Source: Arachis hypogaea (taxonomy: Eukaryota; Streptophyta; Magnoliopsida; Fabales; Fabaceae). Taken from it: 64,000 nucleotides of DNA. A program made the position numbers and the translations under genes. Positions 1,054-62,568 of this stretch are shown here, in pieces. Every line of letters begins with the position of its first letter. Position 1 is the stretch's first letter. A model generated the notes under the pieces. The model searched no databases. It was given only the letters and a program-made list of their open reading frames with translations, and had not been told where the DNA came from. The stretch covers positions 76,594,024 to 76,658,023 of the forward strand of contig NC_092044.1 of the NCBI RefSeq assembly GCF_003086295.3, read 5' to 3'.

Positions 1054-1457
1054 GTGATCCAAGGCAAAAAGAGTGTGCTTAAGAACCCTGGACACCTCTA
1101 ATTGGGGACTCTAGCAAAGCTGGGTCATAATCTGAAAAGGTTCACCCAAGTATGTGTCTGTGGCATGTATGTATCCGGTGGTAATACTGGATGACAGAGT
1201 GCTTTGGGCCACAGCCAAGACTCATGACATAGCTATGTTCAAGAATCATTATACTTAACTAGGAGAATCAATAACATTATCTGAGTTCTGAGTTCCTATA
1301 GATGCCAATCATTCTGAACTTCAAAGGATAGAGTGAGGTGCCAAAACTGTTCGGAAGCAAAAAGCTACTAGTCCCGCTCATCTAATTGGAGCTGAGTTTC
1401 CTTGATATTTTGGAGTCTATAGTATATTCTCTTCTTTTTATCCTAATTGATTTTCAG

Positions 1458-1494
1458 TTGCTTGGGGACAAGCAACAATTTAAGTTTGGTGTTG
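1458..1494 (+). promoter_or_regulatory. RGGA hairpin 2 and LTR-proximal TTTAAGTTTGGTGTTG
   Basis: Stem TTGCTTG/CAAGCAA (1458-1464, 1469-1475) with loop GGGA, followed by TTTAAGTTTGGTGTTG that abuts the LTR at 1495. This is where the polypurine tract is expected, yet the sequence is G/T-rich rather than pure purine. Confidence 0.75.
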
Positions 1495-7314: not shown

Positions 7315-7362
7315 TTGAGTACACCGAGGATGGTGCAAACTTTTAAGTGTGGGGAGGTCATC
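7315..7362 (+). promoter_or_regulatory. RGGA hairpin 1 of family C plus TTTTAAGTGTGGGGAGG
   Basis: Stem CACCG/TGGTG (7322-7326, 7331-7335; last pair G-T) with loop AGGA, then TTTTAAGTGTGGGGAGG. It stands about 1.5 kb before the LTR. The equivalent in D (30638-30653) and G (62551-62568) has full G-C pairing. Confidence 0.7.
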
Positions 7363-8810: not shown

Positions 8811-8847
8811 AGCATGAGGACATGCTTAGTTTAAGTGTGGGGAGATT
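8811..8847 (+). promoter_or_regulatory. RGGA hairpin 2 and polypurine tract of family C
   Basis: Stem AGCATG/CATGCT (8811-8816, 8821-8826) with loop AGGA. TTTAAGTGTGGGGAGATT follows and abuts the LTR start at 8848. The G-rich purine run is a plausible plus-strand primer. Confidence 0.8.
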
Positions 8848-18318: not shown

Positions 18319-18368
18319 AACTCTCATAGCAAAGACTCATTTGATAGGAATTGGAATGATTTTCTGCT

Positions 18369-30616: not shown

Positions 30617-30653
30617 ACCTCCCCACACTTAAAGATTGCACCGTCCTCGGTGC
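30617..30653 (-). promoter_or_regulatory. RGGA hairpin 1 of element D plus TTTAAGTGTGGGGAGG
   Basis: Minus sense: stem GCACCG/CGGTGC (30653-30648, 30643-30638) with loop AGGA, followed by TTTAAGTGTGGGGAGG. It is an internal copy of the module that also touches the LTR. Confidence 0.8.
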
Positions 30654-31339
30654 ATACTGAGATGTACAAGTGGACAGGTGACTCCAACTGATGCTTTTCT
30701 CCAATGATTGTGTAGCTGGACGTGTTTGTCTCCCTATTTACACGTCATCCGGTTCTCTTCCCGGTGGCCATCCTGAAAGAAGAGAAAAGGGAAGAAAAGT
30801 AACCCAAAAATAAAGATAAGAAAATAAATGAAGTATGGGTGGGTTAATGCCAAATGATAAGGGTCTCAATTACATGGAAGCTTCAACATGTACATGAGAA
30901 AACAGTAGGAGCAATGACATATCAATAGTGCAAGAATTGCAACAAAAGAGAGGAGTGTGGGTAATGAAAGACAATATAAATTCATGTCAATGCAAATTAA
31001 TACAAGTATCATAAAAGATTAGCATCGACTTAAATAATATTACCCAACAGTATAAAACAAGTCACTGAGCACCAAAATAATACCAAAAAAGACACAACAG
31101 TTGAATATGAACAAGGAACACCAATGGAAAAATAATAAATTTAGAAAAAAAAAGAAAAATATGCATAAAATTAAAATGTAATGAATGAAATATGCAAATA
31201 AATTAAGTAAAATAGAATGAAGGTGAAAAAGAATGAGAAGTGAAAGAAATAAAGTAAGAAAGAAAGAAGAAAGAGGAAAAGATAGAAGAAATTAGGATTA
31301 GAAAAGAAAAGAAAAGATAATTGGCGGTGATCTGGATAA

Positions 31340-32062: not shown

Positions 32063-33253
32063 TAGCACTTTTAGTTAAAGTCCTTAAGTTGGACATTTGG
32101 TGAGCTACTTGTCATGGGGGCTTGTGCTTGAACTCATCTTGAAATCACCACCAATGCTTGGACTTCCATAAATCTCTATCTATTCCAAGTAAATTTTCCA
32201 AGCTTTGATGGGATTCTTCACAAGCTTTGAGTTCCCAAATTTGATCCTCATGTATTCCGGGATCCCAAATCTTGTTTCTACACCCGTCTTCAAGTTGATC
32301 ATCATGGTTCCATCCGGGTAGCAAGCACTCTGAATTCTCTGTGGAGTACCAAACTCTTCTTTTGGATCTAACCAAATTATCACCAGTTGAGCCCTTACAT
32401 TTATCTCTTGGAGTATCAACCTGGATGAGCCTTGATTTGCAACTCCAACCACTAAACAGTCTCCTCTTATGCTTTATGCCACAAAGCTTCCTGAGTTGGC
32501 CGTCCATTTCAAGAATACCGTACTCAAGTGGGATAGGAAGACGAACAGAGATAAGTTTTACCCACTCAAGTGAAGGAGTAGACGGCAACCTAGGTGGGGA
32601 AGTCTCCAACGTTCTTGACAAAGCGTACTCAACTCCCGTCCGTCCTTTTTGAAGGGCATCTACTTCCACATCATTTGCAGACTCAATCAGAGAAAAGTCT
32701 TCATACTAAAGGAGTTCGCTTGTGGATGTAGATTTATCACTAGGAGGACTTGATGCATGATTCTCATCACCAAGGGGACTTACTTCTTGATCTATCCAAT
32801 CCAAGTCTTCATAAGGAATATGCCATGGAGGTTGTACACTGGCATTCTTGACATCAATTTCAATCTTATTGAAGGGGTACTGATGAGCGGATAATTTATA
32901 CGCTTTTTGGCATTGTTTTTAGGTAGTTTTTAGTAAGTTCAAGCTACTTTTAGGATGTTTTCATTAGTTTTTATGTTAAATTCACATTTTTAGACTTTAC
33001 TATGAGTTTGTGTGTTTTTCTGTGATTTCAGGTAATTTTTGGCTGAAATTGAGGGACTTGAGCAAAACTCTGAAAAAGGCTGACAAAAGGACTGCTGATG
33101 CTGTTGGAATCTGACCTCCCTGCACTCTAAATGGATTTTCTGGAGCTACAGAACTCCAAATGGCGCGCTCTCAACGGCTTTGGAAAGTATACATCCAGAG
33201 CTTTCCAGCAATATATAATAGTCCATACTTTATTCGGAAATTGACGACGTAAC

Positions 33254-33363
33254 TTGGCGTTGAACGCCAAGTACATGCTGCTGTCTGGAGTTAAACGCCA
33301 GAAACACGTCATGATCCGGAGTTGAACGCCCAAAACACGTTATAACTTGGCGTTCAACTCCAA
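33254..33363. repeat. Four palindromes at 31-bp steps in the LTR
   Basis: Units start at 33254, 33285, 33316 and 33347. The first is TTGGCGTTGAACGCCAA; the others are variants with GGAGTT or CAACTCC on one arm. Confidence 0.85.
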
Positions 33364-33478
33364 GAAAAGCCTCAGCTTGTGGATAGATCAAGCTCAGCCC
33401 AAACATACACCAAGTGGGCCCCGGAAGTGGATTTATGCATCAATTACTTACTCATGTAAACCCTAGTAGCTAGTTTAG

Positions 33479-33487
33479 TATAAATAA
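33479..33487 (+). promoter_or_regulatory. TATA box in 5' LTR of A
   Basis: TATAAATAA, also present at 53953 in the 3' LTR. Likely core promoter of the element. Confidence 0.6.
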
Positions 33488-34684
33488 GACTTTTTACTAG
33501 TGTATTAGTCGTCTTTTGACCACGTTTCATCTTTGGTCTCAGTTTTGTTTTATTCTTCATCTTAGGAGGCCATTGAGCACGTTTTAGGGGGCTGGCCATT
33601 CGGCCATGCCTGAACCTTTCACCTATGTATTTTCAACGGTGGAGTTTCTGCACACCATAGATTAAGGGTGTGGAGCTCTGCTGTACCTCAAGTTTCAATA
33701 CAATTACTATTACTTTCTATTCAATTCTCTTTTATTCTTATTCCAAGATATACGTTGCACAACACTTTGATGAATGTGATGATCCGTGACACTCGTCATC
33801 ATTCTCACCTATGAACGCGCGTGATTGACAACCACTTCCGTTCTACTCTAGGCCGGGCGCATATCTCTTAGATTCCCCAACAGAATCTTCGTGGTATAAG
33901 CTAGATAGATGGCAGCATTCATGAGGATCCGGAAAGTCTAACCTTGTCTGTGGTATTCCGAGTAGGATCCCGGGAATCCGGAAAGTTTAACCTTGTCTGT
34001 GGTATTCCGAGTAGGATTCCGATATTGAATGACTGTGACGAGCTTCAAACTCCTGAAGGCTGGGCGTGATGACAAACGCAAAAGAATTAATGGATTCTAC
34101 TCCAACCTGATTGGGAACCAACAGATGATTAGCCGTGCTGTGACAGAGCATTTGGACCATTTTCACTGAGAGGATGGGATGTAGCTATCAACAAGGGTGA
34201 TGCCTCCAGACGATTAGCCGTGCAGTGACAGCGCATAGGACCATTTTCCTGAGAGGATTAAAAGTAGCCATTGATGATGGTGATGCCCTACATACAGCTT
34301 GCCATGGAAAGGAGTAAGAAGGATTGGATGAATGTAATAAGAAAGTAGAAATTCGAGAGGAGCACAGCATCTCCATACGCCTATCTGAAATTCCCACCAT
34401 TAATTTACATAAGTATTTCTATCTTAGTTTATTTATCTTTATTTTCTATTTATTCCATTAATGAAATTTAAACCAATAATCCAATTATACTTGAATCCAC
34501 ATGACTGAGATTTACAATGTGACCATAGCTTGCTTCATACCAACAATCTCTGTGGGATCGACCCTTACTCACGTAAGGTATTACTTGGATGACCCAGTAC
34601 ACTTGCTGGTTAAGTTGAACGGAGTTGTGAGCTTCTCTAACAGTACCTGGAACTCTTTTATCACAATTTCGTCCACCATGTTTT

Positions 34685-34702
34685 TGGCGCCGTTGCCGGG
34701 GA
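34685..34702 (+). other. Primer binding site, tRNA-Asp type
   Basis: TGGCGCCGTTGCCGGGGA is the exact complement of the 3' end of plant tRNA-Asp including CCA. Six bases after the LTR. This primer is used by Athila-type elements. Confidence 0.88.
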
Positions 34703-39887: not shown

Positions 39888-39899
39888 GCAATCACAGAG

Positions 39900-39950: not shown

Positions 39951-40019
39951 TGAGGTAGTTTTCTTTTCATATCTATTTCAATAAAAAGGTTAACTAGTTT
40001 TATCTAGATTGCAAGAAGC

Positions 40020-40280
40020 TAAGTTTGGTGTTGCACACCAAAACAATCTAAGGGAGAATGAAGAATTCTAAGTTTGGTGTTCCACCAAAATCCCATTATA
40101 ACACACATTCTCACCTTATGCATAATATGGGCTTCAAGCATACTGGATGAATTAGTTAACTATTTTGCTGTTTTCTAGTTTTCAGCCTTATTACTTTTGA
40201 GAAAGAAAAAAAAGAATTTCACACATGGTTAATGAAAACCTTTGGCAAGGTACTAAGTTTGGTGTTCCTACACCAAAGTA
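40020..40280 (+). promoter_or_regulatory. Three TTTGGTGT hairpins, B unit 1
   Basis: CTAAGTTTGGTG words each followed by their complement: TTTGGTGT-TGC-ACACCAAA (40024-40042), TTTGGTG-TTC-CACCAAA (40073-40089), TTTGGTGT-TCCT-ACACCAAA (40258-40277). Confidence 0.75.
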
Positions 40281-40330
40281 AGTTCAAAAAGCCCACAAAT
40301 AAATCATGCAGACTAACCACTGTTTCTAAG

Positions 40331-40347
40331 TGCTTGGGGAACAAGCA
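40331..40347 (+). promoter_or_regulatory. RGGA-like hairpin 1, B unit 1
   Basis: TGCTTG/CAAGCA with a 5-base loop GGGAA; a variant of the RGGA hairpin. No TTTAAGT motif follows, so this copy looks eroded. Confidence 0.5.
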
Positions 40348-40904
40348 ACTTCCAATATCACTGCAGAATATCATACAAACTTTTGGAGATTTTTAGCATC
40401 ATCAACCAAAGAGGTGAAAGATGAACATGAAAGTCAGCATTGATGATGATGAGAAGAAGGAAAGCAAGTGAACTCCAACAGGTTGTATTGTTAAGTGATT
40501 GTTTTACGTCAAATATTGCTGTAATTGAAAGTTGGATTGTATCCTTATTTGTCCTGCCTGTATGCATAGTATAGTTTTCTTTATATACCCCTGCCTGCCT
40601 GCATAGCATAGTCTTTCTTTATAATTCAATAAGCAAGATGCTTGATTATTCACAACATTCTTATCTTCAAAACTTGTTTGCACTCAATTTTCAAGAATGC
40701 ATCACATGAAAGTTCTTTGAAACGAAGGATTGAGGAATTAAACAATTTTGAGGTAAGCAAAAGATTAGGAGAAGTGGTGGTTCTAGTTGTATGATTATGT
40801 ATTGAGGTTGCATGCTTGTGAAAACTTGCATGGGAGCTCATAGGCAGGATATGAAGTTCAAAGAAGTATTGTGGAGATTCTCAAAAATCAATTGATCCGA
40901 GAAG

Positions 40905-41010
40905 CAGCAAACAAAATAAAAAGAAAAGTAAAGAAAATACAAAAACAAAAAGAACATGGCCCAAGGCTCTGAGCATCAATTACTAGGCAGAAAAAGAAAG
41001 AAAGAAACAA
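40905..41010 (+). other. A/G-rich tract, B unit 1
   Basis: A-rich with AAAAAGAAAAG words; its right flank (CTCTGAGCATCAAT) is shared with element A near 52785. Confidence 0.6.
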
Positions 41011-41437
41011 AAACTCAAAGAGTTGCTATCCTAGTAAATGCTTGTGGTTGAAGTGTGTCAAGGAAAGAGGCTTGAGCAAGTAAATCCTTAGGGGTGCTTT
41101 AACACCTAATACTTTAAAACCAACTGGTTTAGGAGTATTGATTGAAAACTTATTTAAAGAGCCGCTTTGAGACATGACACTTAGAGTCGAGGCCAAAGCA
41201 CAGAAACTATAAGCTGCTTCAAGGTGATTACATATAAAGAGATCTCTATGATACCATTCGGATGAAAATCCTAAGACCTACGACTCCCAATATGTAAGGA
41301 CTAGTGAGCACTGAAGCCCTTGCATGAGCATATAATTTAGAGTTCACCCCACTGTTACTTAATCACTTCACTCACTGTACTTTACAAGTGTTCTTCAATC
41401 CATCTTAATTGAAAGAACCTCTGAGCATAATTCATTT

Positions 41438-41474
41438 CTTGCTTGGGGACAAGCAAGCTTTAAGTTTGGTGTTG
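41438..41474 (+). promoter_or_regulatory. RGGA hairpin 2 against the middle LTR of B
   Basis: Perfect 8-bp stem CTTGCTTG/CAAGCAAG with loop GGGA, then TTTAAGTTTGGTGTTG abutting the LTR at 41475. Same at 46256-46292 for unit 2. Confidence 0.85.
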
Positions 41475-43327
41475 TGATGACAAGTCATCTTAGCCTAGTT
41501 TCACTAGTCTTTTTCTTATGTTTTCACTTGAATTATGTACTTTCTTGAGCTTTAAGCAAGCCAATTTTGGTAGATTTTCATGATTCCTTTGATTGAATCA
41601 ACCATAGATGAATTAATGCAATTTCATGAGGTTTTATGCTATATTTGTTACATATTGTGAAAGAATGAATATCTCATGATTTTGAGCATAGCTTTGATAT
41701 GTTTGGTTGATTAATGATAGGTGAAGAAAGCTTGGAGAAAGGTTGAAGCAAGAAGGAATGGCTAAGAGGAAGAGATGACAAAAAGTTTGAGCAAAAGTTT
41801 GCCTCAAACTTTAGCTCAAACTTTTGGAATAAGTGAAAATGAACCAGGAAGCAAAAAGCTGGACCAAAAGTAAGCCTCAAACTTTTGCACAAACTTTTGG
41901 GTGAAAAGTTTGCCCCAACGGTAGCCCCTAACTTTTGGGCTAACGTTGGCACATGCAAAACACTCCCTGGGGCACCAAAAGTTTGCGCCAACGTTAGTCC
42001 CTAACTTTTAGGCTAACGTTGGTGCATGAAAATCACTCCCTGGGCACCAAAAGTTTGCGCCAACGTTAGCCTCTAACTTTTGGGCTAACGTTGGCGCATG
42101 AAAAACACATAGGGAGGAGCAAACGTTTGCGCCAACGTTAGCCTCTAACTTTTGGGCTAACGTTGGCGCCATAAGTGCATATGAGGAGGCCAACATTGGA
42201 GCAAAAGTTAGACCCCTAACTTTTGCACCAACGTTGGTATCAGCAAATTGAGGAAGCTGATATGAAAAGTTGGAGTAAAAGTTTGCCTCAAACTTTTACT
42301 CAAACTTTTGGCAACATTCAAACCCGGTTCACTTGGTTCACTTCGGTTCCTCTCCAAATTCCAAGAGCAATCAACCAAGGCCTCTCTCAACCCAATTCCA
42401 CCAAGAGCAAAGGCCCAACTCAAGGCTTGAAGATCATTTGAAGAAAGTGTATAAATAGGATAGAATTCAAGTTATCGGGGAGCTCTTCTTTTTAGTTTTC
42501 CCTTTAGTTTTGCTTAGTAGTTTTCGGAGAGCTTTTGGTATTGAGTCTTAGTTTCGGGGAAGGAGAATTCCATTCTCTTCCTCTTAGTTTTATTGCTTTC
42601 AATTTCAATTACTATTGTCTTGGATCTTGGGTTGGAGAATTGAAGAAATTCTGTTTCAATCTCATCCTGGGATCTCTCTATTTCTTTACTGCATAATTGA
42701 GTTTAAATTTCTGTTAATTGCTCTTCATCTACTTTCTTTGCAAATTTACATTTCCCTTGCAATTGTTCTGGTTGGATCTGGGAAGGCATTGAGATCTAGA
42801 CTCGGTTATCTAGTCTCTTGGGTCCTGAGATCTGAATTTCCAATTTCCAATTCTCTGTTTATTGCTTTTCATGTTCATTTACTCTGCTGCTTCAGATCCG
42901 ATTCAATCCCAATCCCCTTTTACTCTTCGGTTTGATGCAATTTACTTTGCCTTATTTAATTGCTGCAAATCCAATTCCCAATTCCCTTTACATTTCTTGC
43001 ACTTTAAGATTCCGCAATTTACATTTCTTGCATTCTAAGTTTCTGCAATTTATATTACTTGTTCTTTAAGATTCAGCAATTTAATTCTTGCTCTCTTTAA
43101 TTTCATGCAATTTACACATTCCCTTTACTTTCAATGCAATTTAAATTCTGCAAATCACAAATCACTCAACCAAATCTTGATTCGCTTGACTAAATCAACC
43201 ACTAAACTAAAATTGTTCAATCCTTCAATCCTTGTGGGATCGACCTCACTCCCGTGAGTTTTTATTACTTGATGCGACCCGGTGCACTTGCCGGTGAGTT
43301 TTGTGTCGGATCATTTTCCGCACATCA
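41475..43327 (+). repeat. Middle LTR of element B
   Basis: 1853 bp. It has private variants against both outer LTRs: a 16-base deletion near 42990, GAGCTTTAAG, CAACATTGGAG, CTCTATTTC, CTTCGGTTT and GGATCATTTT. Serves as 3' LTR of unit 1 and 5' LTR of unit 2. Hairpin array at about 41778-42236; TATAAATA at 42450. Confidence 0.92.
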
Positions 43328-43333
43328 AGTTTT

Positions 43334-43351
43334 TGGCGCCGTTGCCGGGGA
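43334..43351 (+). other. Primer binding site, tRNA-Asp type (B unit 2)
   Basis: Same 18 bases as in unit 1, six bases after the middle LTR. Confidence 0.88.
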
Positions 43352-43538
43352 TTGATTAGATTGACAATGATTAAGTGAAGTGGTAGTTTAGATCAAGCAC
43401 TTTTTCTTTATTTTTGACTAACCCACCAACTGTTTGATGGTTTGCCTCTATTAACACGCTAACTGTTTGAGGTTTTGTCTCAATTAACTACACTCTATTC
43501 TCAAAAATACCACTGTGTATTCCTTGTGATTGATTTAT

Positions 43539-44705
43539 ATGTCACAGAAAAGAAGAGCAGCCAGAGGGAAGGATATCATTGAAGAAGGAGTTTCTGAGAA
43601 AGAAGAACACCACAACATGAAGCCGCAACTCATCACATTAATCAAGAAAAATTGTTCCTTCGGCGGAAACCCAGTGGAAGATCCTGAACAGCATATATCC
43701 ATTTTTCTAAGGACTTGTGGTGCTGTCAACCCCGATGGTGTAAATCATGACACCTGTAAGCTCTTGTTATTTCCCTTCTCACTAAGGGATGAAGCTGCAC
43801 AATGGTTCGAAACCTTTCCCCAGGGAAGTATTACTAGTTGGGACGATTTGGTTACCAAATTTTTGGCCAAATTCCCCTCATCCCAACAAAATATCAAGGA
43901 AGAACCATTGTTCAAAGCATGGGAAAGATATAAGAAAGCAAATGACAAAGTGGGTTTCCAAGCGTTCTATGAAGGATTAACCCCAGAAACAAGAAGAGTG
44001 GTGGATTACGTCTCAGATGACCTTCTCAAAGCAACAGCAGCTGGCCAAGGAACTGCAGAGCTAAATGACAAGAGAGCCAATAACCAACACTCATTTGAGA
44101 CCCCACAAAATGTAACTTCAAAAAAGGAGATAATGAATCTTGAAGGAATGAAGGCAGCAATGAATCAAAGCAAACAGCTACATCAGCAAACTCAGCAACA
44201 ATTGGAGTCAATAGCTAGACAAATTGATTTTCTCTATTCTACCACAGTGAAGGCACAATTTCCACCATGGAAGCCACATTCTTATCTAAGAATGAGGGAA
44301 TCTCAATATCAGGAACAAAGGGACTTCAATTACAACAACCCCAATTTCCCAAACCTGCAAAAAATTCACCATACCAACAACAATCACTGCATACCACCAC
44401 ACTACCCACCCTTCCAACCCCTAATACCCCACAACCAACCAATTTCACAAGACTCTCAGAGGATCACTAATCTGGAAATCCTAGTAGAGAGAATGATAAA
44501 ACATCAAGAGATGATAAGCAAGAACCATGAGGACTCACTCGGAAGAATTGAGAGGCAAATGAGACAATTAGCCAAGAACCTCACAGAAACAAGTGAGGAG
44601 AGGGCTAACAAAAAAGAATCACTCATCCGGGATGAGCAGCACAAAGCAAAGCCTCACTTGGAAAAACAATGGGACAAGGTGAAGGATGCTCAGAATCTGA
44701 GCTGA
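43539..44705 (+). CDS. Gag-only protein of element B, intact copy
   Basis: 388 residues from ATG at 43539 (MSQKRRAARG) to TGA at 44705. The first ATG is used as the start, the upstream TTG being unlikely. Basic N-terminus; retrotransposon gag core at about residues 35-165 (NPVEDPEQHISIFLRTCG, LLLFPFSLRDEAAQWF, ITSWDDLVTKFLAKFP, FKAWERYKK); then a Gln/Asn/Pro-rich linker and a C-terminal helical, charged region. No CCHC zinc knuckle and no protease motif. Shorter than the gag-protease of A. It probably forms or joins particles made with proteins of a related element. Intact frame suggests recent activity or selection on gag. Confidence 0.85.
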   Translation: MSQKRRAARGKDIIEEGVSEKEEHHNMKPQLITLIKKNCSFGGNPVEDPEQHISIFLRTCGAVNPDGVNHDTCKLLLFPFSLRDEAAQWFETFPQGSITSWDDLVTKFLAKFPSSQQNIKEEPLFKAWERYKKANDKVGFQAFYEGLTPETRRVVDYVSDDLLKATAAGQGTAELNDKRANNQHSFETPQNVTSKKEIMNLEGMKAAMNQSKQLHQQTQQQLESIARQIDFLYSTTVKAQFPPWKPHSYLRMRESQYQEQRDFNYNNPNFPNLQKIHHTNNNHCIPPHYPPFQPLIPHNQPISQDSQRITNLEILVERMIKHQEMISKNHEDSLGRIERQMRQLAKNLTETSEERANKKESLIRDEQHKAKPHLEKQWDKVKDAQNLS

Positions 44706-44717
44706 GCAATCACAGAG

Positions 44718-44767
44718 AATGTCAAGCTAGTGACAATAAAAGAGCGCTTGTTGGGAGGCAACCCAAC
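44718..44767 (+). promoter_or_regulatory. Post-gag double hairpin, B unit 2
   Basis: Same as unit 1: TGTCA/TGACA stem, AGCGCTT, then GTTGGG-AGGCAA-CCCAAC at 44750-44767. Confidence 0.75.
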
Positions 44768-46255
44768 CTGAGGTAGTTTTCTTTTCATATCTATTTCAAT
44801 AAAAAGGTTAACTAGTTTTATCTAGATTGCAAGAAGCTAAGTTTGGTGTTGCACACCAAAACAATCTAAGGGAGAATGAAGAATTCTAAGTTTGGTGTTC
44901 CACCAAAATTCCATTATAACACACATTCTCACCTTATGCATAATATGGGCTTCAAGCATACTGGATGAATTAGTTAACTATTTTGCTGTTTTCTAGTTTT
45001 CAGCCTTATTACTTTTGAGAAAGAAAAAAAAGAATTTCACACATGGTTAATGAAAACCTTTGGCAAGGTACTAAGTTTGGTGTTCCTACACCAAAGTAAG
45101 TTCAAAAAGCCCACAAATAAATCATGCAGACTAACTACTGTTTCTAAGTGCTTGGGGAACAAGCAACTTCCAATATCACTGCAGAATATCATACAAACTT
45201 TTGGAGATTTTTAGCATCATCAACCAAAGAGGTGAAAGATGAACATGAAAGTCAGCATTGATGATGATGAGAAGAAGGAAAGCAAGTGAACTCCAACAGG
45301 TTGTATTGTTAAGTGATTGTTTTACGTCAAATATTGCTGTAATTGAAAGTTGGATTGTATCCTTATTTGTCCTGCCTGTATGCATAGTATAGTTTTCTTT
45401 ATATACCCCTGCCTGCCTGCATAGCATAGTCTTTCTTTATAATTCAATAAGCAAGATGCTTGATTATTCACAACATTCTTATCTTCAAAACTTGTTTGCA
45501 CTCAATTTTCAAGAATGCATCACATGAAAGTTCTTTGAAACGAAGGATTGAGGAATTAAACAATTTTGAGGTAAGCAAAAGATTAGGAGAAGTGGTGGTT
45601 CTAGTTGTATGATTATGTATTGAGGTTGCATGCTTGTGAAAACTTGCATGGGAGCTCATAGGCAGGATATGAAGTTCAAAGAAGTATTGTGGAGATTCTC
45701 AAAAATCAATTGATCCGAGAAGCAGCAAACAAAACAAAAAGAAAAGTAAAGAAAATACAAAAACAAAAAGAACATGGCCCAAGGCTCTGAGCATCAATTA
45801 CTAGGCAGAAAAAGAAAGAAAGAAACAAAAACTCAAAGAGTTGCTATCCTAGTAAATGCTTGTGGTTGAAGTGTGTCAAGGAAAGAGGCTTGAGCAAGTA
45901 AATCCTTAGGGGTGCTTTAACACCTAATACCTTAAAACCAACTGGTTTAGGAGTATTGATTGAAAACTTATTTAAAGAGCCGCTTTGAGACATGACACTT
46001 AGAGTCGAGGCCAAAGCACAGAAACTATAAGCTGCTTCAAGGTGATTACATATAAAGAGATCTCTATGATACCATTCGGATGAAAATCCTAAGACCTACG
46101 ACTCCCAATATGTAAGGACTAGTGAGCACTGAAGCCCTTGCATGAGCATATAATTTAGAGTTCACCCCACTGTTACTTAATCACTTCACTCACTGTACTT
46201 TACAAGTGTTCTTCAATCCATCTTAATTGAAAGAACCTCTGAGCATAATTCATTT

Positions 46256-46292
46256 CTTGCTTGGGGACAAGCAAGCTTTAAGTTTGGTGTTG
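46256..46292 (+). promoter_or_regulatory. RGGA hairpin 2 against the last LTR of B
   Basis: Stem CTTGCTTG/CAAGCAAG (46256-46263, 46268-46275), loop GGGA, then the TTTAAGTTTGGTGTTG motif. LTR begins at 46293. Confidence 0.85.
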
Positions 46293-48161
46293 TGATGACA
46301 AGTCATCTTAGCCTAGTTTCACTAGTCTTTTTCTTATGTTTTCACTTGAATTATGTACTTTCTTGAGCTCTAAGCAAGCCAATTTGGGTAGATTTTCATG
46401 ATTCCTTTGATTGAATCAACCATAGATGAATTAATGCAATTTCATGAGGTTTTATGCTATATTTGTTACATATTGTGAAAGAATGAATATCTCATGATTT
46501 TGAGCATAGCTTTGATATGTTTGGTTGATTAATGATAGGTGAAGAAAGCTTGGAGAAAGGTTGAAGTAAGAAGGAATGGCTAAGAGGAAGAGAGGACAAA
46601 AAGTTTGAGCAAAAGTTTGCCTCAAACTTTAGCTCAAACTTTTGGAATAAGTGAAAATGAACCAGGAAGCAAAAAGCTGGACCAAAAGTAAGCCTCAAAC
46701 TTTTGCACAAACTTTTGGGTGAAAAGTTTGCCCCAACGGTAGCCCCTAACTTTTGGGCTAACGTTGGCACATGCAAAACACTCCCTGGGGCACCAAAAGT
46801 TTGCGCCAACGTTAGCCCCTAACTTTTAGGCTAACGTTGGCGCATGAAAAACACTCCCTGGGCACCAAAAGTTTGCGCCAACGTTAGCCTCTAACTTTTG
46901 GGCTAACGTTGGCGCATGAAAAACACATAGGGAGGAGCAAAAGTTTGCGCCAACGTTAGCCTCTAACTTTTGGGCTAACGTTGGCGCCATAAGTGCATAT
47001 GAGGAGGCCAACGTTGGAGCAAAAGTTAGACCCCTAACTTTTGCACCAACGTTGGTATCAGCAAATTGAGGAAGCTGATATGAAAAGTTGGAGTTAAAGT
47101 TTGCCTCAAACTTTTACTCAAACTTTTGGCAACATTCAAACCCGGTTCACTTGGTTCACTTCGGTTCCTCTCCAAATTCCAAGAGCAATCAACCAAGGCC
47201 TCTCTCAACCCAATTCCACCAAGAGCAAAGGCCCAACTCAAGGCTTGAAGATCATTTGAAGAAAGTGTATAAATAGGATAGAATTCAAGTTATCGGGGAG
47301 CTCTTCTTTTTAGTTTTCCCTTTAGTTTTGCTTAGTAGTTTTCGGAGAGCTTTTGGTATTGAGTCTTAGTTTCGGGGAAGGAGAATTCCATTCTCTTCCT
47401 CTTAGTTTTATTGCTTTCAATTTCAATTACTATTGTCTTGGATCTTGGGTTGGAGAATTGAAGAAATTCTGTTTCAATCTCATCCTGGGATCTCTCTGTT
47501 TCTTTACTGCATAATTGAGTTTAAATTTCTGTTAATTGCTCTTCATCTACTTTCTTTGCAAATTTACATTTCCCTTGCAATTGTTCTGGTTGGATCTGGG
47601 AAGGCATTGAGATCTAGACTCGGTTATCTAGTCTCTTGGGTCCTGAGATCTGAATTTCCAATTTCCAATTCTCTGTTTATTGCTTTTCATGTTCATTTAC
47701 TCTGCTGCTTCAGATCCGATTCAATCCCAATCCCCTTTTACTCTTCTGTTTGATGCAATTTACTTTGCCTTATTTAATTGCTGGAAATCCAATTCCCAAT
47801 TCCCTTTACGTTTCAAGTCATTTACATTTCTTGCACTTTAAGATTCCGCAATTTACATTTCTTGCATTCTAAGTTTCTGCAATTTATATTACTTGTTCTT
47901 TAAGATTCAGCAATTTAATTCTTGCTCTCTTTAATTTCATGCAATTTACACATTCCCTTTACTTTCAATGCAATTTAAATTCTGCAAATCACAAATCACT
48001 CAACCAAATCTTGATTCGCTTGACTAAATCAACCACTAAACTAAAATTGTTCAATCCTTCAATCCATGTGGGATCGACCTCACTCCCGTGAGTTTTTATT
48101 ACTTGATGCGACCCGGTGCACTTGCCGGTGAGTTTTGTGTCGGATCGTTTTCCGCACATCA
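46293..48161 (+). repeat. LTR 3 of element B
   Basis: 1869 bp. Shares with LTR 1, against the middle LTR, the TTCAAGTCATTTAC insertion, GAGCTCTAAG, CTCTGTTTC and CTTCTGTTT. Hairpin array at about 46595-47060; TATAAATA at 47268. It ends against the restored gag frame of A. Confidence 0.92.
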
Positions 48162-50019
48162 ACTGTAAAGACGAATGGAGTTGATCCTGAAGTCTACAGA
48201 CTCATGCTTTTCCCTTTTGCTGTAAGAGACAGAGCTAGAATATGGTTGGATTCACAACCCAAGGACAGCCTGGACTCCTGGGATAAGCTGGTCACTACCT
48301 TCTTAGATAAATTCTTTCCTCCTCAAAAGCTGAGCAGGCTAAGAGTGGATGTTCAAACCTTCAAACAAAAAGATGGTGAATCCCTCTATGAAGCTTGGGA
48401 AAGATACAAGCAGTTGACCAAAAGATGTCCATCTGACATGTTTTCAGAATGGACCATATTAGATATATTCTATTATAGCCTATCTGAATTTTCGAAAATG
48501 TCATTGGACCATTCTGCAGGTGGATCTATTCACCTAAAGAAAACGCCTGAAGAGGCTCAAGAACTCATTGACATGGTTGCAAACAACCAATTCATGTACA
48601 CTTCTGAGAGGAATTCCGTGAATAATGGGATACCTCAGAAGAAAGAAGTTCTTGAAATTGATGCTCTGAATGCCATATTGGCTCAGAACAAAGTGTTGAC
48701 TCAGCAAGTCAACATGATCTCTCAAAGTCTGAATGGATGGCAACATGCATCCAATAGTACTAAGGAGGCAGCTTCTGAAGAAGCTTATGATCCTGAGAAC
48801 CCTACCATGGCAGAGGTTAATTACATGGGTGAACCTTATAGAAACACCTATAACTCATCATGGAGAAATCATCCAAATTTCTCATGGAAGGATCAACAAA
48901 AGCCTCAACAAGGCTTTAACAATGGTGGACGCAATAGGCTGAGCAATAGCAAGCCTTTTCCATCATCTTCTCAGCAACAGACAGAGAATTCTGAACAAAA
49001 CACTTCTAATTTAGCCAATCTAGTCTCTGATCTGTCAAAAGCCACTTTCAGTTTCATGAGTGAAACAAGATCCTCCATCAGAAATTTGGAGGCACAAGTG
49101 GGCCAGCTGAGTAAGAAAGTCATTGAAACTCCTCCCAGTATTCTCCCAAGCAATACAGAAGAGAATCTAAAAGAAGAGTGCAAGGCGATTGATATAATCA
49201 ATATGGCCGAATGCACAAGGGAGGAGGAGGACAAAAATCCTAGTGAGGAAGACCTCCTGGGACGTCCCTCAAGCAAGAAGGAATTTCCTATTAAGGATCC
49301 AAAGGAATCTGAGGCTCATATAGGGACCATAGAGATTCTATTAAATCTCCTTCTGCCATTCATGAGCTCTGAAGACTATTCTTCCTCTGAAGAGGATGAA
49401 GATGTGACTGGAGAGCAAGTTGCTCAATACTTAGGAGCTATCATGAAGCTAAATGCCAAGTTGTTTGGTAATGAGACTTGGGAAAGTGAACCTCCCATGC
49501 TCATTAATGAACTAGATACCTGGATTCAGCAAATTTTACCTCAAAAGAGACAAGATCCTGGCAAGTTCTTAATACCTTGTACCATAGGCACCATGACCTT
49601 TGAAAAGGCTCTCTGTGATCTAGGGTCAGGGATAAATCTTATGCCACTCTCTGTAATGGAGAAGCTGGGGATCATTGGGGTACAACCTGCCTTGTTCTCA
49701 CTACAATTGGCAAACAAGTCATTGAGACAAGCTTATGGAATAGTAGAGGACGTGTTAGTAAAGGTTGAAGGCCTTTACATCCCTGCTGATTTCATAATCT
49801 TAGACACTAGGAAGGAAGAGGATGAATGCATCATCCTTGTAAGACCTTTCCTAGCCACAGCAGGAGCTGTGATAGATGTCAACAGAGGTGAATTAGTCCT
49901 TCAATTGAATGGGGACTACCTTGTGTTTAAGGCACATGGCCATCCCTCTGTGACAAAAGAGAGTAAGCATGAAGAGCTTCTCTCAGTTTAGAGTCAAAAA
50001 GAGCCCCCACAGTCAAACT

Positions 50020-50100
50020 CTAAGTTTGGTGTTGTGAGGCCACAACCAAACTCTAAGTTTGGTGTTAAGACCCCATATCCAAACTCTAAGTTTGGTGTTG
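50020..50100 (+). repeat. Three CTAAGTTTGGTGTT repeats at 33-bp steps
   Basis: Copies start at 50020, 50053 and 50086, straight after the gag-protease stop. Between copies lie CCAAAC words that can pair with GTTTGG. The same word stands next to the LTR. Confidence 0.85.
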
Positions 50101-50147
50101 GGACTATACAACATTGACCTAATCACCTTTGTGGCTCCATGAGAGCC

Positions 50148-50337: not shown

Positions 50338-50578
50338 CTGGCGTTCAACGCCAGTAAGGAGCATCTGGCTGGCGTTCAACGCCAGAACAGAGCATGAAAC
50401 TGGCGCTAAATGCCAGAAATAAGCAACATTCTGGCGCTGAATGCCAGGAATGTGCCTAGAGAAAAAGCTGGCGCTGAACGCCAGTAACAAGCATGAAACT
50501 GGCGTTCAACGCTAGAAACATGTTACATGTGGGTGTTGAACGCCCAGAATGTGCACCACTCGGTGTTTAAACGTCATA
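50338..50578. repeat. Array of eight palindromes at 31-bp steps
   Basis: CTGGCGTTCAACGCCAG at 50338 and 50369; variants start at 50400, 50431, 50468, 50499, about 50530 and about 50561. The step is 31 bp except one of 37. Changes often hit both arms (GGCGCT with AATGCC only partly). Spacers are A-rich and unlike each other. Confidence 0.9.
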
Positions 50579-51041: not shown

Positions 51042-51078
51042 TTGCTCGAGGACGAGCAATATTTTAAGTTTGGTGTGG
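51042..51078 (+). promoter_or_regulatory. RGGA hairpin 1 of element A
   Basis: TTGCTCG-AGGA-CGAGCAA at 51042-51059, then TTTTAAGTTTGGTGTGG. The accessory ORF starts at 51115. Confidence 0.85.
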
Positions 51079-51114
51079 TCAAAGCACAATCTTTTTTGTT
51101 TTCCACTACCATCA

Positions 51115-52263
51115 ATGGCACCTAAGGCCGGAGAATCCTCTAGAAAAGGAAAAGGGAAGACAAAAGCTTCCACCTTCGAGTCATGGGAGATGGAAAGATT
51201 CATCTCCAAGAGCCATCAAGACCACTTCTATGATGTTGTGGCAAAGAAGAAGGTGATCCCTGAGGTCCCTTTCAAGCTCAAGAAGAATGAATATTCGGAG
51301 ATCCGACATGAGATCCGAAGAAGAGGTTGGGAAGTCCTAACCAACCCCATGCAACAAGTCGGAATCTTAATGGTTCAAGAGTTCTATGCCAATGCATGGA
51401 TCACTAGGAACCATGATCAAAGTATGAACCCGAATCCAAAGAATTATCTCACAATGGTTCGGGGGAAACACTTAGATTTTAGTCCGGAAAATGTGAGGTT
51501 GGCGTTTCACTTGCCCATGATGCAATGAGATGAACGCCCCTACACTAGAAGGGTCAACTTTAATCAAAGGTTGGACCAAGTCCTTACGGACATATGTGTG
51601 GAAGGAGCTCAATGGAAGAGAGACTCCAAAGGCAAGCCAGTTCAACTAAGAAGACTGGACCTCAAGCCTGTGGCTAGAGGATGGTTGGAGTTCATTCAAC
51701 GCTCCATCATTCCCACTAGCAACCGATCTGAAGTCACTGTGGATCGGGCCATCATGATTCATAGCATTATGATTGGAGAGGAAGTAGAAGTTCATGAGGT
51801 CATCTCCAATGAAATCTACAAAATAGCCGACAAGCCCTCCACCATGGCAAGGCTAGCTTTTCCTCACCTTATTTGTCATCTATGTTACTCAGCTGGAGTT
51901 ATCATAGAAGGAGACATCTCCATTGAGGAGGATAAGCCCATCACCAAGAAGAGGATGGAGCAAGCAAGAGAGACCCTTCACGGTTCTCAAGAGATGCATG
52001 AGGAAGCTCATCATCAAGAAATCCCTGAGATGCCTCAAGGGATGCACTTTCCTCCCAACAATTATTGGGAACAACTCAACACTTCCTTAGAAGATTTGAG
52101 CCACAATGTTGAACAATTAAGGGTGGAACATCATGAGCACTCCATCATTCTCCATGAAATAAGAGAAGACCAGAGAGCAATGAGGGAGGAGCAAAAAAGG
52201 CAAGGAAGGGACATAGAAGAGCTTAAGGACATTGTTGGTCCTTCAAGAAGAAGACGCCACTAA
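51115..52263 (+). pseudogene. Accessory ORF of element A ('putative plant transposon protein' type), one nonsense codon
   Basis: 383 codons from MAPKAGESSRKG to the stop at 52261-52263, interrupted only by an in-frame TGA at 51526-51528. The N-terminal tail is basic and Ser-rich. The middle (FYANAWITRN, YLTMVRGKHLDFSPENVRLAF and the following helix-rich part) fits the domain named 'putative plant transposon protein' found between pol and the 3' LTR of Athila-type elements (from memory). The C-terminus is a Glu/Arg-rich coiled coil (LRVEHHEHSIILHEIREDQ). The TGA is followed by GATGAACG and could come from CGA by CpG deamination. Role unknown; it is not a typical env protein, no membrane span seen. 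Confidence 0.75.
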
Positions 52264-52639
52264 AGGTGGATTCATTCCTTGTTCTTATTTCTTTCTGCTT
52301 TCCGGTTTTTATGTTGTGTTTGTCTATGTTTTGTGTCTTTACTTCATGATCATTAGTAGTTAGTAACTATGTCTTAAAGCTATGAACAAATTCCATTAAT
52401 CCTTCACCTCTCTTAAATGAAAATGTTTTAATTCAAAAGAACAAGAAGTACATGAATTTCGAATTTATCCTTGAATTTAATTTAATTTTATTGATGTGGT
52501 GACAATACTTTTTGTTTTCCGAATGAATGCTTAAACAGTGCATATTTTTGATCTTGTTGTTTATGAATGTTAAAACTGTTGGCTCTTGAAAGAATGATGA
52601 ACAAAGAGAAATGTTATTGATGATCCGAAAAATCATGAA

Positions 52640-52760
52640 AATTGATTCTTGAAGCAAGAAAAAGCAGTGAAAAGTAAAAAGCTTGCGAAAAAAAATAGAA
52701 AAAAAATAAGAAAGAAAAAGAAAAAGCAAGCAGAAAAAGCCAATAGCCCTTAAAACCAAA
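52640..52760 (+). other. A/G-rich tract of element A
   Basis: Runs of A with AAGAAAGAAAAAG; lies between the accessory ORF and RGGA hairpin 2. Confidence 0.6.
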
Positions 52761-53316
52761 AGGCAAGGGTAAAAAGGATCCAAGACTTTGAGCATCAATG
52801 GATAGGAGGGCCCAAGGAAATAAAATCCAGGCCTAAGCGGCTAAACCAAGCTGTCCCTAACCATGTGCTTGTGTCATGAAGGTCCAAGTGAAAAGCTTGA
52901 GACTGAATGGTTAAAGTCGTGATCCAAAGCAAAAAGAGTGTGCTTAAGAGCTCTGGACACCACTAACTGGGGACTCTAGCAAAGCTGAGTCACAATCTGA
53001 AAAGGTTCAGCCAGTTATGTGTCTGTGGCATTTATGTATCCGGTGGTAATACTGGAAAACAAAATGCTTAGGGCCACAGCCAAGACTCATAAGTAGCTGT
53101 GTTCAAGAATCAACATGCTTAACTAGGAAAGTCAATAACACTATCCGAAATTCTAAGTTCCTAGAGAAGCCAATCATTCTAAACTTCAAAGGAAAAAGTG
53201 AGATGCCAAAACTGTTCATAAAGCTACAAGTCCCGCTCATCTAATTAGAATTAATATTCATTGATATTTTGAAATTTACAGTATATTCTCTTCTTTTTAT
53301 CCTAATTGATTTTCAG

Positions 53317-53353
53317 TTGCTTGAGGACAAGCAACAATTTAAGTTTGGTGTTG
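53317..53353 (+). promoter_or_regulatory. RGGA hairpin 2 of element A
   Basis: TTGCTTG-AGGA-CAAGCAA at 53317-53334, then TTTAAGTTTGGTGTTG abutting the LTR at 53354. Compared with hairpin 1, one C-G pair has become T-A with both arms changed. Confidence 0.88.
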
Positions 53354-55152
53354 TGATGAGCGGATAATTTATACGCTTTTTGGCATTGTTTTTAGGTAGT
53401 TTTTAGTAAGTTCAGGCTACTTTTAGGGATGTTTTCATTAGTTTTTATGTTAAATCCACATTTTTGGACTTTACTATGAGTTTGTGTGTTTTTCTGTGAT
53501 TTCAGGTAATTTCTGGCTAAAATTGAGGGACTTGAGCAAAACTCTGAAAAAGGCTGACAAAAGGACTGCTGATGCTGTTGGAATCTGACCTCCCTACACT
53601 CGAAATGGATTTTATAGAGCTACAGAACTCCAAAAAGCGAGCTCTCAACGGCTTTCGAAAGTAGACATCCAGAGCTTTCCAGTAATATATAATAGTCCAT
53701 ACTTTATTCGGAAATTGACGACGTAACTTGGCGTTGAACGCTAAGTACATGCTGCTGTCTAGAGTTAAACGCCAGAAACACGTCATGATCCGGAGTTGAA
53801 CGCCCAAAACACGTTATAACTTGGCGTTCAACTCCAAGAAAAGCCTCAGCTTGTGGATAGATCATGCTTAGCCCAAACATACACCAACTGGGCCCCGGAA
53901 ATGGATTTATGCATCAATTACTTACTCATGTAAACCCTAGTAGCTAGTTTAGTATAAATAAGACTTTTTACTAGTGTATTAGTCGTCTTTTGACCACGTT
54001 TCATCTTTGGTCTCAGTTTTGTTTTATTCTTCATCTTAGGAGGCCATTCAGCACGTTTTAGGGGGCTGGCTATTTGGCCATGCCTGAACCTTTCACTTAT
54101 GTATTTTCAACGGTGGAGTTTCTGCACACCATAGATTAAGGGTGTGGAGCTCTACTGTACCTCAAGTTTCAATACAATTACTATTACTTTCTATTCAATT
54201 CTCTTTTATTCTTATTCCAAGATATACATTGCACAACACTTTGATGAATGTGATGATCCGTGACACTCATCATCATTCTCACCTATGAACGCGCGTGATT
54301 GACAACCACTTCCATTCTACTCTAGGCCGGGCGCATATCTCTTAGATTCCCCAACAGAATCTTCGTGGTATAAGCTAGATAGATGGCGGCATTCATGGGG
54401 ATCCGGAAAGTCTAACCTTGTCTGTGGTATTCCAAGTAGGATCCCGGAAATCCGGAAAGTCTAACCTTGTCTGTGGTATTCCGAGTAGGATTCCGGTATT
54501 GAATGACTGTGACGAGCTTCAAACTCCTGAAGGCTGGGCGTGATGACAAACGCAAAAGAATCAATGGATTCTACTCCAACCTGATTGAGAACCGACAGAT
54601 GATTAGCCGTGCTGTGACAGAGCATTTGGACCATTTTCACTGAGAGGATGGGATGTAGCTATCAACAAGTGTGATGCCTCCAGACGATTAGCGGTGCATT
54701 GACAGTGCATAGGACCATTTTCCCGAGAGGATTAAAAGTAGCCATTGATGATGGTGATGCCCTACATACAGCTTGCCATGGAAAGGAGTAAGAAGGATTG
54801 GATGAATGTAATTAGAAAGTAGAAATTCGAGAGGAGCACAGCATCTCCATACGCCTATCTGAAATTCCCACCATTAATTTACATAAGTATTTCTATCTTA
54901 GTTTATTTATCTTTATTTTCTATTTATTCCATTAATCAAATTTAAACCAATAATCCAATTATACTTGAATCCACATGACTGAGATTTACAAGGTGACCAT
55001 AGCTTGCTTCATACCAACAATCGCTGTGGGATCGACCCTTACTCACGTAAGGTATTACTTGGATGACCCAGTACACTTGCTGGTTAAGTTGAACGGAGTT
55101 GTGAGCTTCTCTAACAGTACCTGGAACTCTTTTATCACAATTTCGTCCACCA
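53354..55152 (+). repeat. 3' LTR of element A
   Basis: 1799 bp, nearly identical to the 5' LTR including its two tandem duplications; TATAAATAA at 53953-53961. Followed by GGTAC. Confidence 0.92.
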
Positions 55153-56393
55153 GGTACTCTACAATCCTAGATTCCCATGGACGTTCAGCATCTCCTAAAT
55201 CTTCAACCACTTCTTCCTCTGCAACTATAATGGCTTCTTCCACTTGTTCCAATACAAAGCCATGTTCCTCATTATCCACTGGAGTTTCTAGTGTCTCCTT
55301 CATGCTACGCTCTTCTTTTGATTCTCCACATGTAGCCATGGGAGTACTTTGAGTGTTCAAATGTTGGGAAGCTAATCGATTTACTACCTCGATAAAGGCA
55401 GTCGCAAATTCTAGTACTCCCCATTTCATCTCTTCTTGCCCTTGAAGAAGAACACCAATAGTATCATGCATTGAAGGTTGAGGTGGATGTGAGGGCTCAT
55501 TATTTGGGAGGAAAGTTTCATGATAAGAGGGTGGTTCATCATAAGAATGTGGTGGTTTATCACTCTCCATCTTTTCCACTTATTGCACAGCACACTTTGA
55601 TTCTGTGTTCTCAAGTTGAGATTCTTTAGCCATGAAAGCTTCGGGTGCTGTTCAGTTTATCGCTCGGTCCAATTGATGCAGGGTTGCTTGAAATTGATCC
55701 ATTGTTTCCTTGAGACGATCCCTTGACTCTTGTTCTGCTCGGATATCATAAGTATGATCATAAGACTCTTGGATTGATGGAAATGGATGTGGTGTATATG
55801 GAGGTGGTAGTCCTTGGGAGTAACTGGGTTGGAATTGGGGTGGATCTATGTATGGTTCATATGGCTCATAGGGTGGTTGATATGGTGGGTAAAGGTTAGA
55901 ATCATGTGATGATGTTTGATAGTTGGGGGCTTGTGAGTGTGGTGGTCCAAAGATATGTTAAGGAGGGAGTTCATAAGCATATAGTGGGGCTTGTTGGTAA
56001 CTACAAGGGTCCACCATATCCATCATCTTGGTACGCTCCCTGTAATGGCTCTTGACTATAGTAATTTGGTGGAGGTTGGTTGTCACGAAAGGGTCCACCA
56101 TAACTATTGTCTTGGAATGCATTGTAGGATGGTCTTTATCTGTGGTACTGTGGAAGGTGTTGTTGCCGAAAGGGTTGATCAGATCCTCGTGGCTCCTTCC
56201 ATCTCTGATTGTTTTGAACTTGATGCATGTTCCTGTTATAATTTCCATTCCTTGCAACAACATTGGAACAAACTCAAAACGATAGGGGTGAGAACTCATA
56301 ATAGCAAATAAAAATTAAAAACGAAAATAAAAACAAATAAACAAGCAAAATAAAATATTTACAATAACCAATAATAAGGTACACGTTTGCAAT

Positions 56394-61012: not shown

Positions 61013-61038
61013 CACTTAAACCATGCATGTCCTCGTGC
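61013..61038 (-). promoter_or_regulatory. RGGA hairpin 2 and polypurine tract of element G
   Basis: Minus sense GCACG-AGGA-CATGC (one G-T pair), then TTTAAGTGTGGAGAGATT against the LTR. Confidence 0.75.
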
Positions 61039-61670
61039 TTAACCAAGAAGAAGACGAAAGGTAGCAACATTTATTCAATGGAAACCAAAATATATGCAAT
61101 CTATCTAAATGCAACTATCTAAATGCAAGTACCTAAATGGATGCAAGTACTTGGTCAAAATAAATCAATTTTCAAGAAAATCAATATCAGCATAAGGGCT
61201 AAGGGTATTAACAGCCAAACCAAACCACAATTGAATTGAGTTATTGAAGATTAAACAAACTTGCAAGAAAAGTGTTGATTCTAGGGGAAAACATGTAATT
61301 GAGCAATCGAACCCTCACCGAAAGTGTTTGCACTCTAGTCGCTCAAGTGTATAGGGTCGATCCACTCAATTCTCCCCTAATCATGCTTTCCAAGATTTGT
61401 TTTTCATCTAACAATCAACACTTATTTCATGCATGCATACACATATCATGAGGTCTTTTCTTTGGTTGTAATGGGACTAGGGTCAAGGTAGGATGCATAT
61501 GGTCAAGTGAGCTTGAGATTTGAATCTTTGATCAACTTAAACTTCTCACCTAGCCTATATGACAACCTATACAATTTCAAAGCTAACCTAACTACCCATT
61601 TTTTTACTTTTCGCACATGCATTCTTTTCTTGATCATAACTCATATGCATTGATTATTATTGGACTTTAG

Positions 61671-62529: not shown

Positions 62530-62568
62530 ACCTCCCACCACTTAAAAGTTTGCACCGTCCTCGGTGCA
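62530..62568 (-). promoter_or_regulatory. RGGA hairpin 1 of element G
   Basis: Minus sense TGCACCG-AGGA-CGGTGCA (7 bp, perfect), followed by TTTTAAGTGGTGGGAGG, where the polypurine copy carries a small insertion. Confidence 0.8.

Follow-up and report, generated by a model that had tools for sequence, protein, structure and literature searches.

A hairpin with a GGA tip precedes polypurine tract-like words at two sites of long terminal repeat retrotransposons in Arachis hypogaea

We analyzed a 64,000-nucleotide stretch of Arachis hypogaea DNA (RefSeq assembly GCF_003086295.3, contig NC_092044.1, positions 76,594,024 to 76,658,023 of the forward strand), referred to here as the window, which holds long terminal repeat (LTR) retrotransposons of three families. 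Judged by their sequence, these host elements are of the Athila/Calypso-like, tRNA-Asp-primed Ty3/gypsy type. They carry a module in which a hairpin with an RGGA loop is followed by a word resembling TTTAAGTGTGGGG or TTTAAGTTTGGTG, presumed to be a polypurine tract (PPT). The module has a consistent anatomy and a fixed spacing, it occurs twice per element in two of the three families, and it is present in high copy number in the genome. The most likely reading, on which our confidence is evenly balanced, is that the module would serve the formation of plus-strand primers at a terminal and at an internal PPT.

Anatomy, spacing and copy number of the module

The consensus module consists of a stretch that is often rich in pyrimidines, a variable stem of 6-9 bp, a near-constant G[RGGA]C tip, a few spacer nucleotides and the word TTTAAGTGTGGGG or TTTAAGTTTGGTG. 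The hairpins are real and exceed the chance level: the window contains 13 RGGA hairpins with at least six Watson-Crick pairs, compared with a mean of 0.49 and a maximum of 2 in 100 dinucleotide shuffles, and 10 hairpins of at least 6 bp also lie near TTTAAGT, compared with 0.01 in dinucleotide shuffles. Three of the 13 perfect hairpins lie outside modules, at 40258 (-), 45076 (-) and 49856. An initial annotation of the window had listed hairpins at 179, 51042, 1458, 53317, 41438, 46256 and 8811 on the plus strand and at 29163, 30638 and 62551 on the minus strand; all of them are present at these places, within one base, and on these strands. Its estimate of about 13 sites has to be lowered to 12 modules (Table 1), two of which are decayed (7322, with 5 bp including one wobble, and 61022-61041 on the minus strand).

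The same annotation had noted a PPT-like word shortly after the hairpin and a closing G-C pair in the perfect hairpins, and both features hold. The word follows 1-6 nt downstream in all 12 modules, slightly altered at 62551 and 61022 and in the form TCTAAG at 179; the closing pair is G-C in 10 of 10 perfect window modules. One internal and one 3' copy per element were also found as described in families 1 and 3, with the internal copy about 1.1-2.3 kb inside the element. Family 2 departs from this scheme: each of its 4.8-kb units shows a single module, immediately before the LTR. Nor does the 3' hairpin touch the LTR, as had been stated, since the PPT intervenes: in the window, 17-21 nt separate the base of the hairpin from the LTR in the six 3' copies measured, or 15 nt for family 2 when the LTR start is taken from the BLAST match, which begins at 41473, and not from TGATGAC at 41475, the start adopted here.

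The spacing between hairpin and word is narrow. From loop end to TTTAAG it amounts to 9-11 nt in 88 of 88 modules (8-12 allowed) and in 72 of 72 modules of an overlapping set (7-13 allowed); in 100 listed rows of the GAGGAC pattern the gap is 8-10 N (4-12 allowed). In the window pairs the PPT word is alike at both sites of an element, GTTTGGTG occurring twice in family 1 and GTGTGGGG-type words twice in family 3. Fifteen family 3 internal modules, with up to 3 mismatches allowed, carry GTGTGG-type words.

A search of the host genome (2,557,474,382 bases), the one plant genome covered, returned 15,342 + 15,447 exact matches (30,789) to GAGGACN{4,12}TTTAAGTGTGGGG, with none for the reversed-pattern control, and 35,627 + 35,448 exact matches (71,075) to GGACN{4,12}TTTAAGTTTGGTG, with 18 + 14 (32) for the control. 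Besides the window, the loci that were read come mostly from the start of one contig. A further search was blind to the hairpin and used only the PPT and the LTR start, in the pattern TTTAAGTGTGGGGAGGTTGATAAACC, which has 5,849 + 5,742 matches in the genome. The first 30 of these loci, all from one contig and of one LTR type and thus no random sample, showed a hairpin with a 4-nt loop and at least six pairs (wobbles allowed) directly upstream of the junction in 26 cases. Hence the prediction that most copies have a hairpin next to the 3' LTR survives for this LTR type. RGGAC is kept at all 30 junctions, and the closing pair is G-C at 29 of them, the exception being locus L146.

An internal module, in some cases decayed, was present in 24 of the 26 family 3 elements examined far enough upstream: ten within the locus, five further upstream and nine as an exact partner among the GAGGAC-pattern matches. 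It was not found in L131 and L138 within the stretch examined. L146, L150, L151 and L154 were left out of this count because they were read only to about 1.5 kb upstream. For family 1 and its kin we used the pattern that fixes GGAC and leaves the 5' arm free; 19 of the first 20 rows have at least seven pairs, wobbles included, and the single miss (L186) lost one or more stem bases.

Viral and prokaryotic collections contributed no plant relatives. Four viral patterns gave 70, 0, 21 and 0 stretches, and two protein look-ups gave none. No stem longer than 1 bp occurs in the 70 stretches of the first pattern; among the 21, the stem reaches 6 bp with wobbles counted in four identical stretches and 4 bp in one other. 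Four stretches from the prokaryotic genome collection are without the hairpin as judged by eye.

Covariation of the stems

The stems differ in sequence and still pair. In the 12 window hairpins (10 distinct) 91.3% of the cells pair, seven of eight pairs change on both sides, and the covariation score is 0.708, compared with 0.211 after shuffling. A larger set of 88 distinct modules was reduced to 31 cluster representatives (29 distinct), with the first member of each cluster taken regardless of pairing; only copies with both an RRGA-type tip and a PPT-like word were eligible as representatives. Here 89.2% of the cells pair, compared with 55.2% in shuffles, and 83 cells are two-sided, compared with 32.3. 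The score of 0.831 was reached by none of 500 shuffles (0.226 shuffled), and the best slid register scored 0.165. Similar values came from an earlier set, in which 30 representatives stood for 72 modules (87.5% paired; score 0.751, compared with 0.223 shuffled). The number of further pair types was reached by 26 and 194 of 500 shuffles in the two larger sets. At least six consecutive pairs occur in 73 of the 88 modules, and 15 fall short.

The cleanest evidence for covariation is, in our view, provided by minimal compensated swaps, in which one position changes and the rest of the inner stem stays constant: TGCTCG/TGCTTG, GCACCG/GCATCG and GCACCG/GCACGG. Likewise, the inner stem TTGCTTG is found with TA, GC or CG as its outermost pair across sister families. 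On most measures the compensatory changes proposed by the initial annotation clearly exceed the controls, both shuffled and slid, one measure being level with the shuffles (see below), and they appear to point to selection on pairing in the folded form.

Several decayed internal copies are, by eye, broken at CpG sites and others are not; breaks at CpG are as expected for the decay of old methylated copies. For a decay comparison the T.G wobble was set against the C.A mismatch (TTGCTCGAGGACAAGCAA), which we reasoned to be equal under neutral, strand-symmetric decay; the genome counts for AGGA loops are 13,785 for C-G and 691 for T.G, and no inference is drawn from them.

Longer palindromes were seen as well. 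Locus L157 contains at 367-741, in minus orientation, tandem palindromes of five successive units with perfect stems of 17-20 bp; the stem sequences change between some units and the pairing is kept. This array is a separate and possibly stronger case of covariation. In the window, the arrays at 37060-37325 and 50338-50554 are palindromic by eye.

Plus-strand priming and its alternatives

How could a hairpin at this place help to form the plus-strand primer? While the minus strand is being made, reverse transcriptase (RT) would copy the LTR, then the PPT and would then reach the base of the hairpin. A pause at this base, or binding of Gag or RT to the GGA tip, may hold the PPT RNA in place and so help ribonuclease H to cut it at the right end. 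In this scheme the PPT-like words would be functional PPTs, the hairpin would aid cutting or protection of the primer, and the internal module may prime a second, central plus strand. The weakest step is the idea that the pause acts as a ruler, with the 15-21 nt between hairpin base and LTR as its length; we regard this step as improbable.

The initial annotation had suggested a cis-signal for plus-strand priming, packaging or RNA processing. The linkage to the PPT and the double copies fit plus-strand priming and a second internal site. A general role in RNA processing or in expression of the extra open reading frame (ORF) is unsupported because this ORF follows the internal hairpin in family 1 but precedes it in family 3. 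A more far-reaching proposal, which we put forward only tentatively, is that a plant lineage of Ty3/gypsy elements may use a composite plus-strand primer, made of a covarying GRGGAC-tipped hairpin and a PPT, with a terminal and a central origin both recognised via RNA structure.

Several points weigh against plus-strand priming. The two active sites of Ty3 RT are about 13 bp apart according to the part of PMC5371799 available to us, and this distance fits 15-21 nt poorly. The advantage of the 63-nt module stretches over shuffles in folding is modest (z -0.5 to -3.0). The number of pairs changed on both sides is not above that in shuffles (402 and 398 of 500 reach it in the larger sets), and because the copies are related by descent all shuffle counts overstate independence. 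The lists from the GAGGAC and GGAC patterns contain internal and 3' pairs as well, but these patterns fix the PPT word, so that pairs with mixed words could not appear in them. The word GTTTGGTG is not especially rich in purines, and its label as a PPT rests on its position before the LTR. Finally, PPT-like words also occur without a hairpin: in family 1 at 34910, 35110 and 50019-50097, and in many family 3 loci (among L126-L155) as a third site, (T)TTAAGTGTGGG- or TTCAAGTGTGGG-like, which lacks an RGGA hairpin and lies about 820-940 nt 5' of the 3' junction.

The word AAGTTTGGTG as such occurs 19 times in the window, modules included, compared with 0.25 expected. Hairpin-less copies lie at 34910, 35110, 40018-40264, 44836-45082 and 50019-50097 on the plus strand and at 4396 and 4197 on the minus strand; three of them belong to a 33-bp tandem at 50001-50104.

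The alternative that survives best, unlikely as we judge it, is a packaging or Gag-binding signal: nucleocapsid would bind the GGA tip, two copies near the 3' end of the element RNA would mark it for uptake into particles, and the linkage to the PPT would be incidental. Packaging hairpins with GGAG tips are familiar from retroviruses. In agreement with this idea the RGGA tip and the closing G-C pair are far more constant than the stem, also in the hairpin-blind junctions, whereas in the other sets the search patterns that supplied most rows already fixed part of the tip; furthermore, family 2, in which gag is the only ORF seen, retains the hairpin. However, a packaging hairpin need not hold a PPT spacing of 9-11 nt at two places, nor stand always 5' of the PPT.

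Somewhat less probable is shared descent with upkeep at the DNA level. The hairpin would then be an old palindrome without function, its arms re-matched by template switching in the course of reverse transcription. Template switching can indeed re-match short imperfect palindromes, and the long tandem palindromes of L157 show matching arms nearby; but this explanation does not account for the constant tip, the constant PPT spacing, the occurrence at two places and the hairpins at 26 of 30 unselected junctions.

We consider it very unlikely that the hairpin is an expression signal for the extra ORF, such as a 3' splice site or a site of re-initiation or internal entry. The family 1 internal hairpin does lie downstream of a CT-rich tract, with its end 55 nt upstream of the ATG that opens the Transposase_32 ORF. 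Yet the family 3 ORF precedes the internal hairpin and terminates within or at it, and the 3' copy is followed only by the LTR and by no extra ORF. Even less credit is due to a signal for transcription or 3'-end formation of the LTR transcript: one copy is close to the 3' LTR, but the other is well inside the element, and such elements have their poly(A) sites within the LTR.

Least probable of all, and largely refuted, is a by-product of coding, in which the hairpin would be the C-terminal codons (T-E-D-x-A) of the extra ORF: family 3 internal copies do read TEDGAN or STEDRAKF in one frame and three of the five database proteins read end accordingly (see below), but tip and pairing recur at 3' sites without a long ORF, and in intact copies residue x (G, D, R) follows the changes of the paired codon that precedes GAG, the behavior expected of RNA pairing. 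The distinct 3' hairpins have at most 27 open codons upstream in the Glu-Asp frame of the tip and at most 49 in any frame; because they sit in no long ORF, coding leaves the constant tip unexplained.

Plus-strand priming, the reading we prefer, can be compared with known systems, here from the parts of the cited papers that were available. Athila4 and Calypso have an additional PPT in their linker (Wright and Voytas 2002, as cited in PMC2829016); these are likewise Ty3/gypsy elements with an extra ORF and a second PPT between coding region and 3' LTR. In contrast to that account, which in the available text makes no mention of a hairpin, a covarying hairpin stands at both PPTs here, and the internal PPT may be found 5' or 3' of the extra ORF. 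In Sireviruses and other Ty1/copia elements the terminal PPT is enclosed by an inverted repeat, for which a part in forming the correct primer was proposed (Bousios et al. 2010, PMC2829016). Both systems thus have paired sequence at the PPT; however, the copia arms straddle the PPT, with the right arm in the LTR, whereas both arms here are 5' of it. The upstream PPTs of the copia elements are described there without the repeat, whereas the internal PPT here has its own hairpin, although other PPT-like words do not; the multiple AAGTTTGGTG copies in the window resemble the multiple PPTs of Sireviruses. The central PPT of human immunodeficiency virus 1 (HIV-1) and PPT2 of Ty1, cited in the same paper, are reported as functional and lie in coding sequence. 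A second plus-strand priming site is proposed here too; unlike those two, the candidate internal PPT is located in the linker or at the end of an ORF and has a hairpin. Ty3 is without a known central PPT (PMC5371799, in part), and its PPT lies in a base-paired region (PMC11381356, in part).

The word "hairpin" is absent from the available text of PMC11963269, PMC1142308 and PMC6317226. Among the literature matches listed, screened by title and first lines of the abstract in a collection without most subscription papers, none pointed to such a hairpin. The extra PPT and the copia inverted repeats are already known, and what appears to be new is a covarying hairpin wholly 5' of the PPT and at both sites.

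The choice of primer by RT is an old question and is usually ascribed to the purine tract alone. A covarying hairpin that precedes two PPTs at a fixed distance, is retained in several families and has matches by the tens of thousands in a single genome would amount to a natural experiment on what priming needs besides this tract, and it would offer a candidate central priming site in Ty3/gypsy elements. Hairpin and PPT together could also aid annotation as precise marks of element 3' ends and internal sites.

Element families and further features of the window

Table 1. Positions of modules and associated element features in the window
Feature	Positions	Strand	Remarks
Family 1, 5' LTR	32881..34678	+	preceded by GGTAC
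Family 1, primer binding site TGGCGCCGTTGCCGG, tRNA-Asp type	34685..34699	+	after 5' LTR
gag ORF (Retrotrans_gag PF03732)	48132..49991	+	Pfam match E 2.3e-17
Family 1, internal hairpin, 7 bp TTGCTCG/CGAGCAA	51042..51059	+	loop AGGA
Family 1, internal PPT-like word TTTAAGTTTGGTG	51063..51075	+	
Extra ORF with Transposase_32 (PF20167)	51115..52263	+	3' of internal hairpin
Family 1, 3' hairpin, 8 bp GTTGCTTG/CAAGCAAC	53316..53335	+	loop AGGA
Family 1, terminal PPT word TTTAAGTTTGGTG	53338..53350	+	directly 5' of LTR
Family 1, 3' LTR (TGATGAG...CACCA)	53354..55152	+	then target-site duplicate GGTAC at 55153-55157
Family 1, second copy, internal hairpin, 8 bp TTTGCTCG/CGAGCAAA	178..197	+	word TCTAAGTTTGGTG at 201
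Family 1, second copy, 3' hairpin	1457..1476	+	loop GGGA; LTR from 1495
Family 2, 3' hairpin, 8 bp CTTGCTTG/CAAGCAAG	41438..41457	+	
Family 2, 3' hairpin, second unit	46256..46275	+	
Family 3, internal hairpin, decayed, 5 bp with one wobble	7322..7335	+	
Family 3, 3' hairpin, 6 bp AGCATG/CATGCT	8811..8826	+	LTR TGATAAACC at 8848
Family 3, 3' hairpin, 8 bp TTAGCATG/CATGCTAA	29163..29182	-	LTR from 29143
Family 3, internal hairpin, 7 bp TGCACCG/CGGTGCA	30637..30654	-	
Family 3, 3' hairpin, decayed	61022..61041	-	
Family 3, internal hairpin, 7 bp TGCACCG/CGGTGCA	62551..62568	-	

The family 1 element extends from 32881 to 55152. Its LTRs have TG...CA ends, are 97.3% identical over 1802 aligned columns and are flanked on both sides by the 5-bp target-site duplication GGTAC. 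As read by eye, the gag ORF in Table 1 continues the gag at 36150-36704 of this element, which is interrupted by family 2, a tandem array (LTR-internal-LTR-internal-LTR) nested in it at 36629-48162. The extra ORF has one in-frame stop at 51526-51528. An Rfam match to snoR71 at 48336-48439 (-), antisense to gag, scores 41.7 with a threshold of 40 and is probably due to chance or derived from the element.

With respect to the lineage, the tRNA-Asp primer binding site TGGCGCCGTTGCCGG also occurs at 38518 and 43334 (+) and at 56397 (-), and with one change at 4605 (-); such a site is documented for Calypso and Diaspora in the available part of PMC1142308. The place of an env-like ORF, between pol and the 3' LTR, holds an extra ORF, but this ORF matches Transposase_32. 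None of the six longer window ORFs scanned with Pfam matched RT or integrase.

The LTR of family 3 starts with TGATAAACC, and its internal and 3' hairpins form the pairs 7322/8811, 30637/29163 and 62551/61022. The Transposase_32 ORF of this family lies 5' of the internal hairpin, which forms its last codons. In L166, L169 and L165 the frame stays open for 458, 288 and 226 codons, respectively, and ends in EDRAKF or EDRAKL before the stop; the upstream ORF of L166 matches Transposase_32, and in other family 3 copies the frame is short or broken. The L166 ORF has six protein matches; four of the five with PF20167 are from Arachis hypogaea, and the sixth is from Arachis ipaensis. Of the five database proteins read, P0001, P0003 and P0005 (the latter two from Arachis hypogaea) end in STEDRAKF or GTEDGAKP and P0002 in STENHANS, while P0004 stops short of the end encoded by the hairpin. 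The Transposase_32 ORF in L166, L168 and L169 thus sits on the opposite side of the internal hairpin and PPT from that at 51115-52263 in the window, implying that families 3 and 1 would differ by a rearranged linker.

Directly after the PPT the family 3 LTR opens with an inverted repeat of 8-9 bp, GATAAACC...GGTTTATC (at 8848, at 29143 (-) and in L097, L101 and L103). When each of 30 cluster representatives was set against 100 plain shuffles, a candidate second hairpin directly 3' of the PPT reached p <=0.04 in nine; seven of these nine are family 3 3' copies, whose LTR start is palindromic. Its mean stem is 5.3 bp, compared with 3.9 bp in shuffles, and it was not counted as part of the module. 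In L169 a family-1-like LTR start, TGATGAGCGGATATTTTATACGC, follows from 2501 directly after the family 3 internal module, a junction that may be either a nested insertion or a recombinant end. The window also contains a satellite with a 229-bp unit in thirteen copies at 18304-21350.

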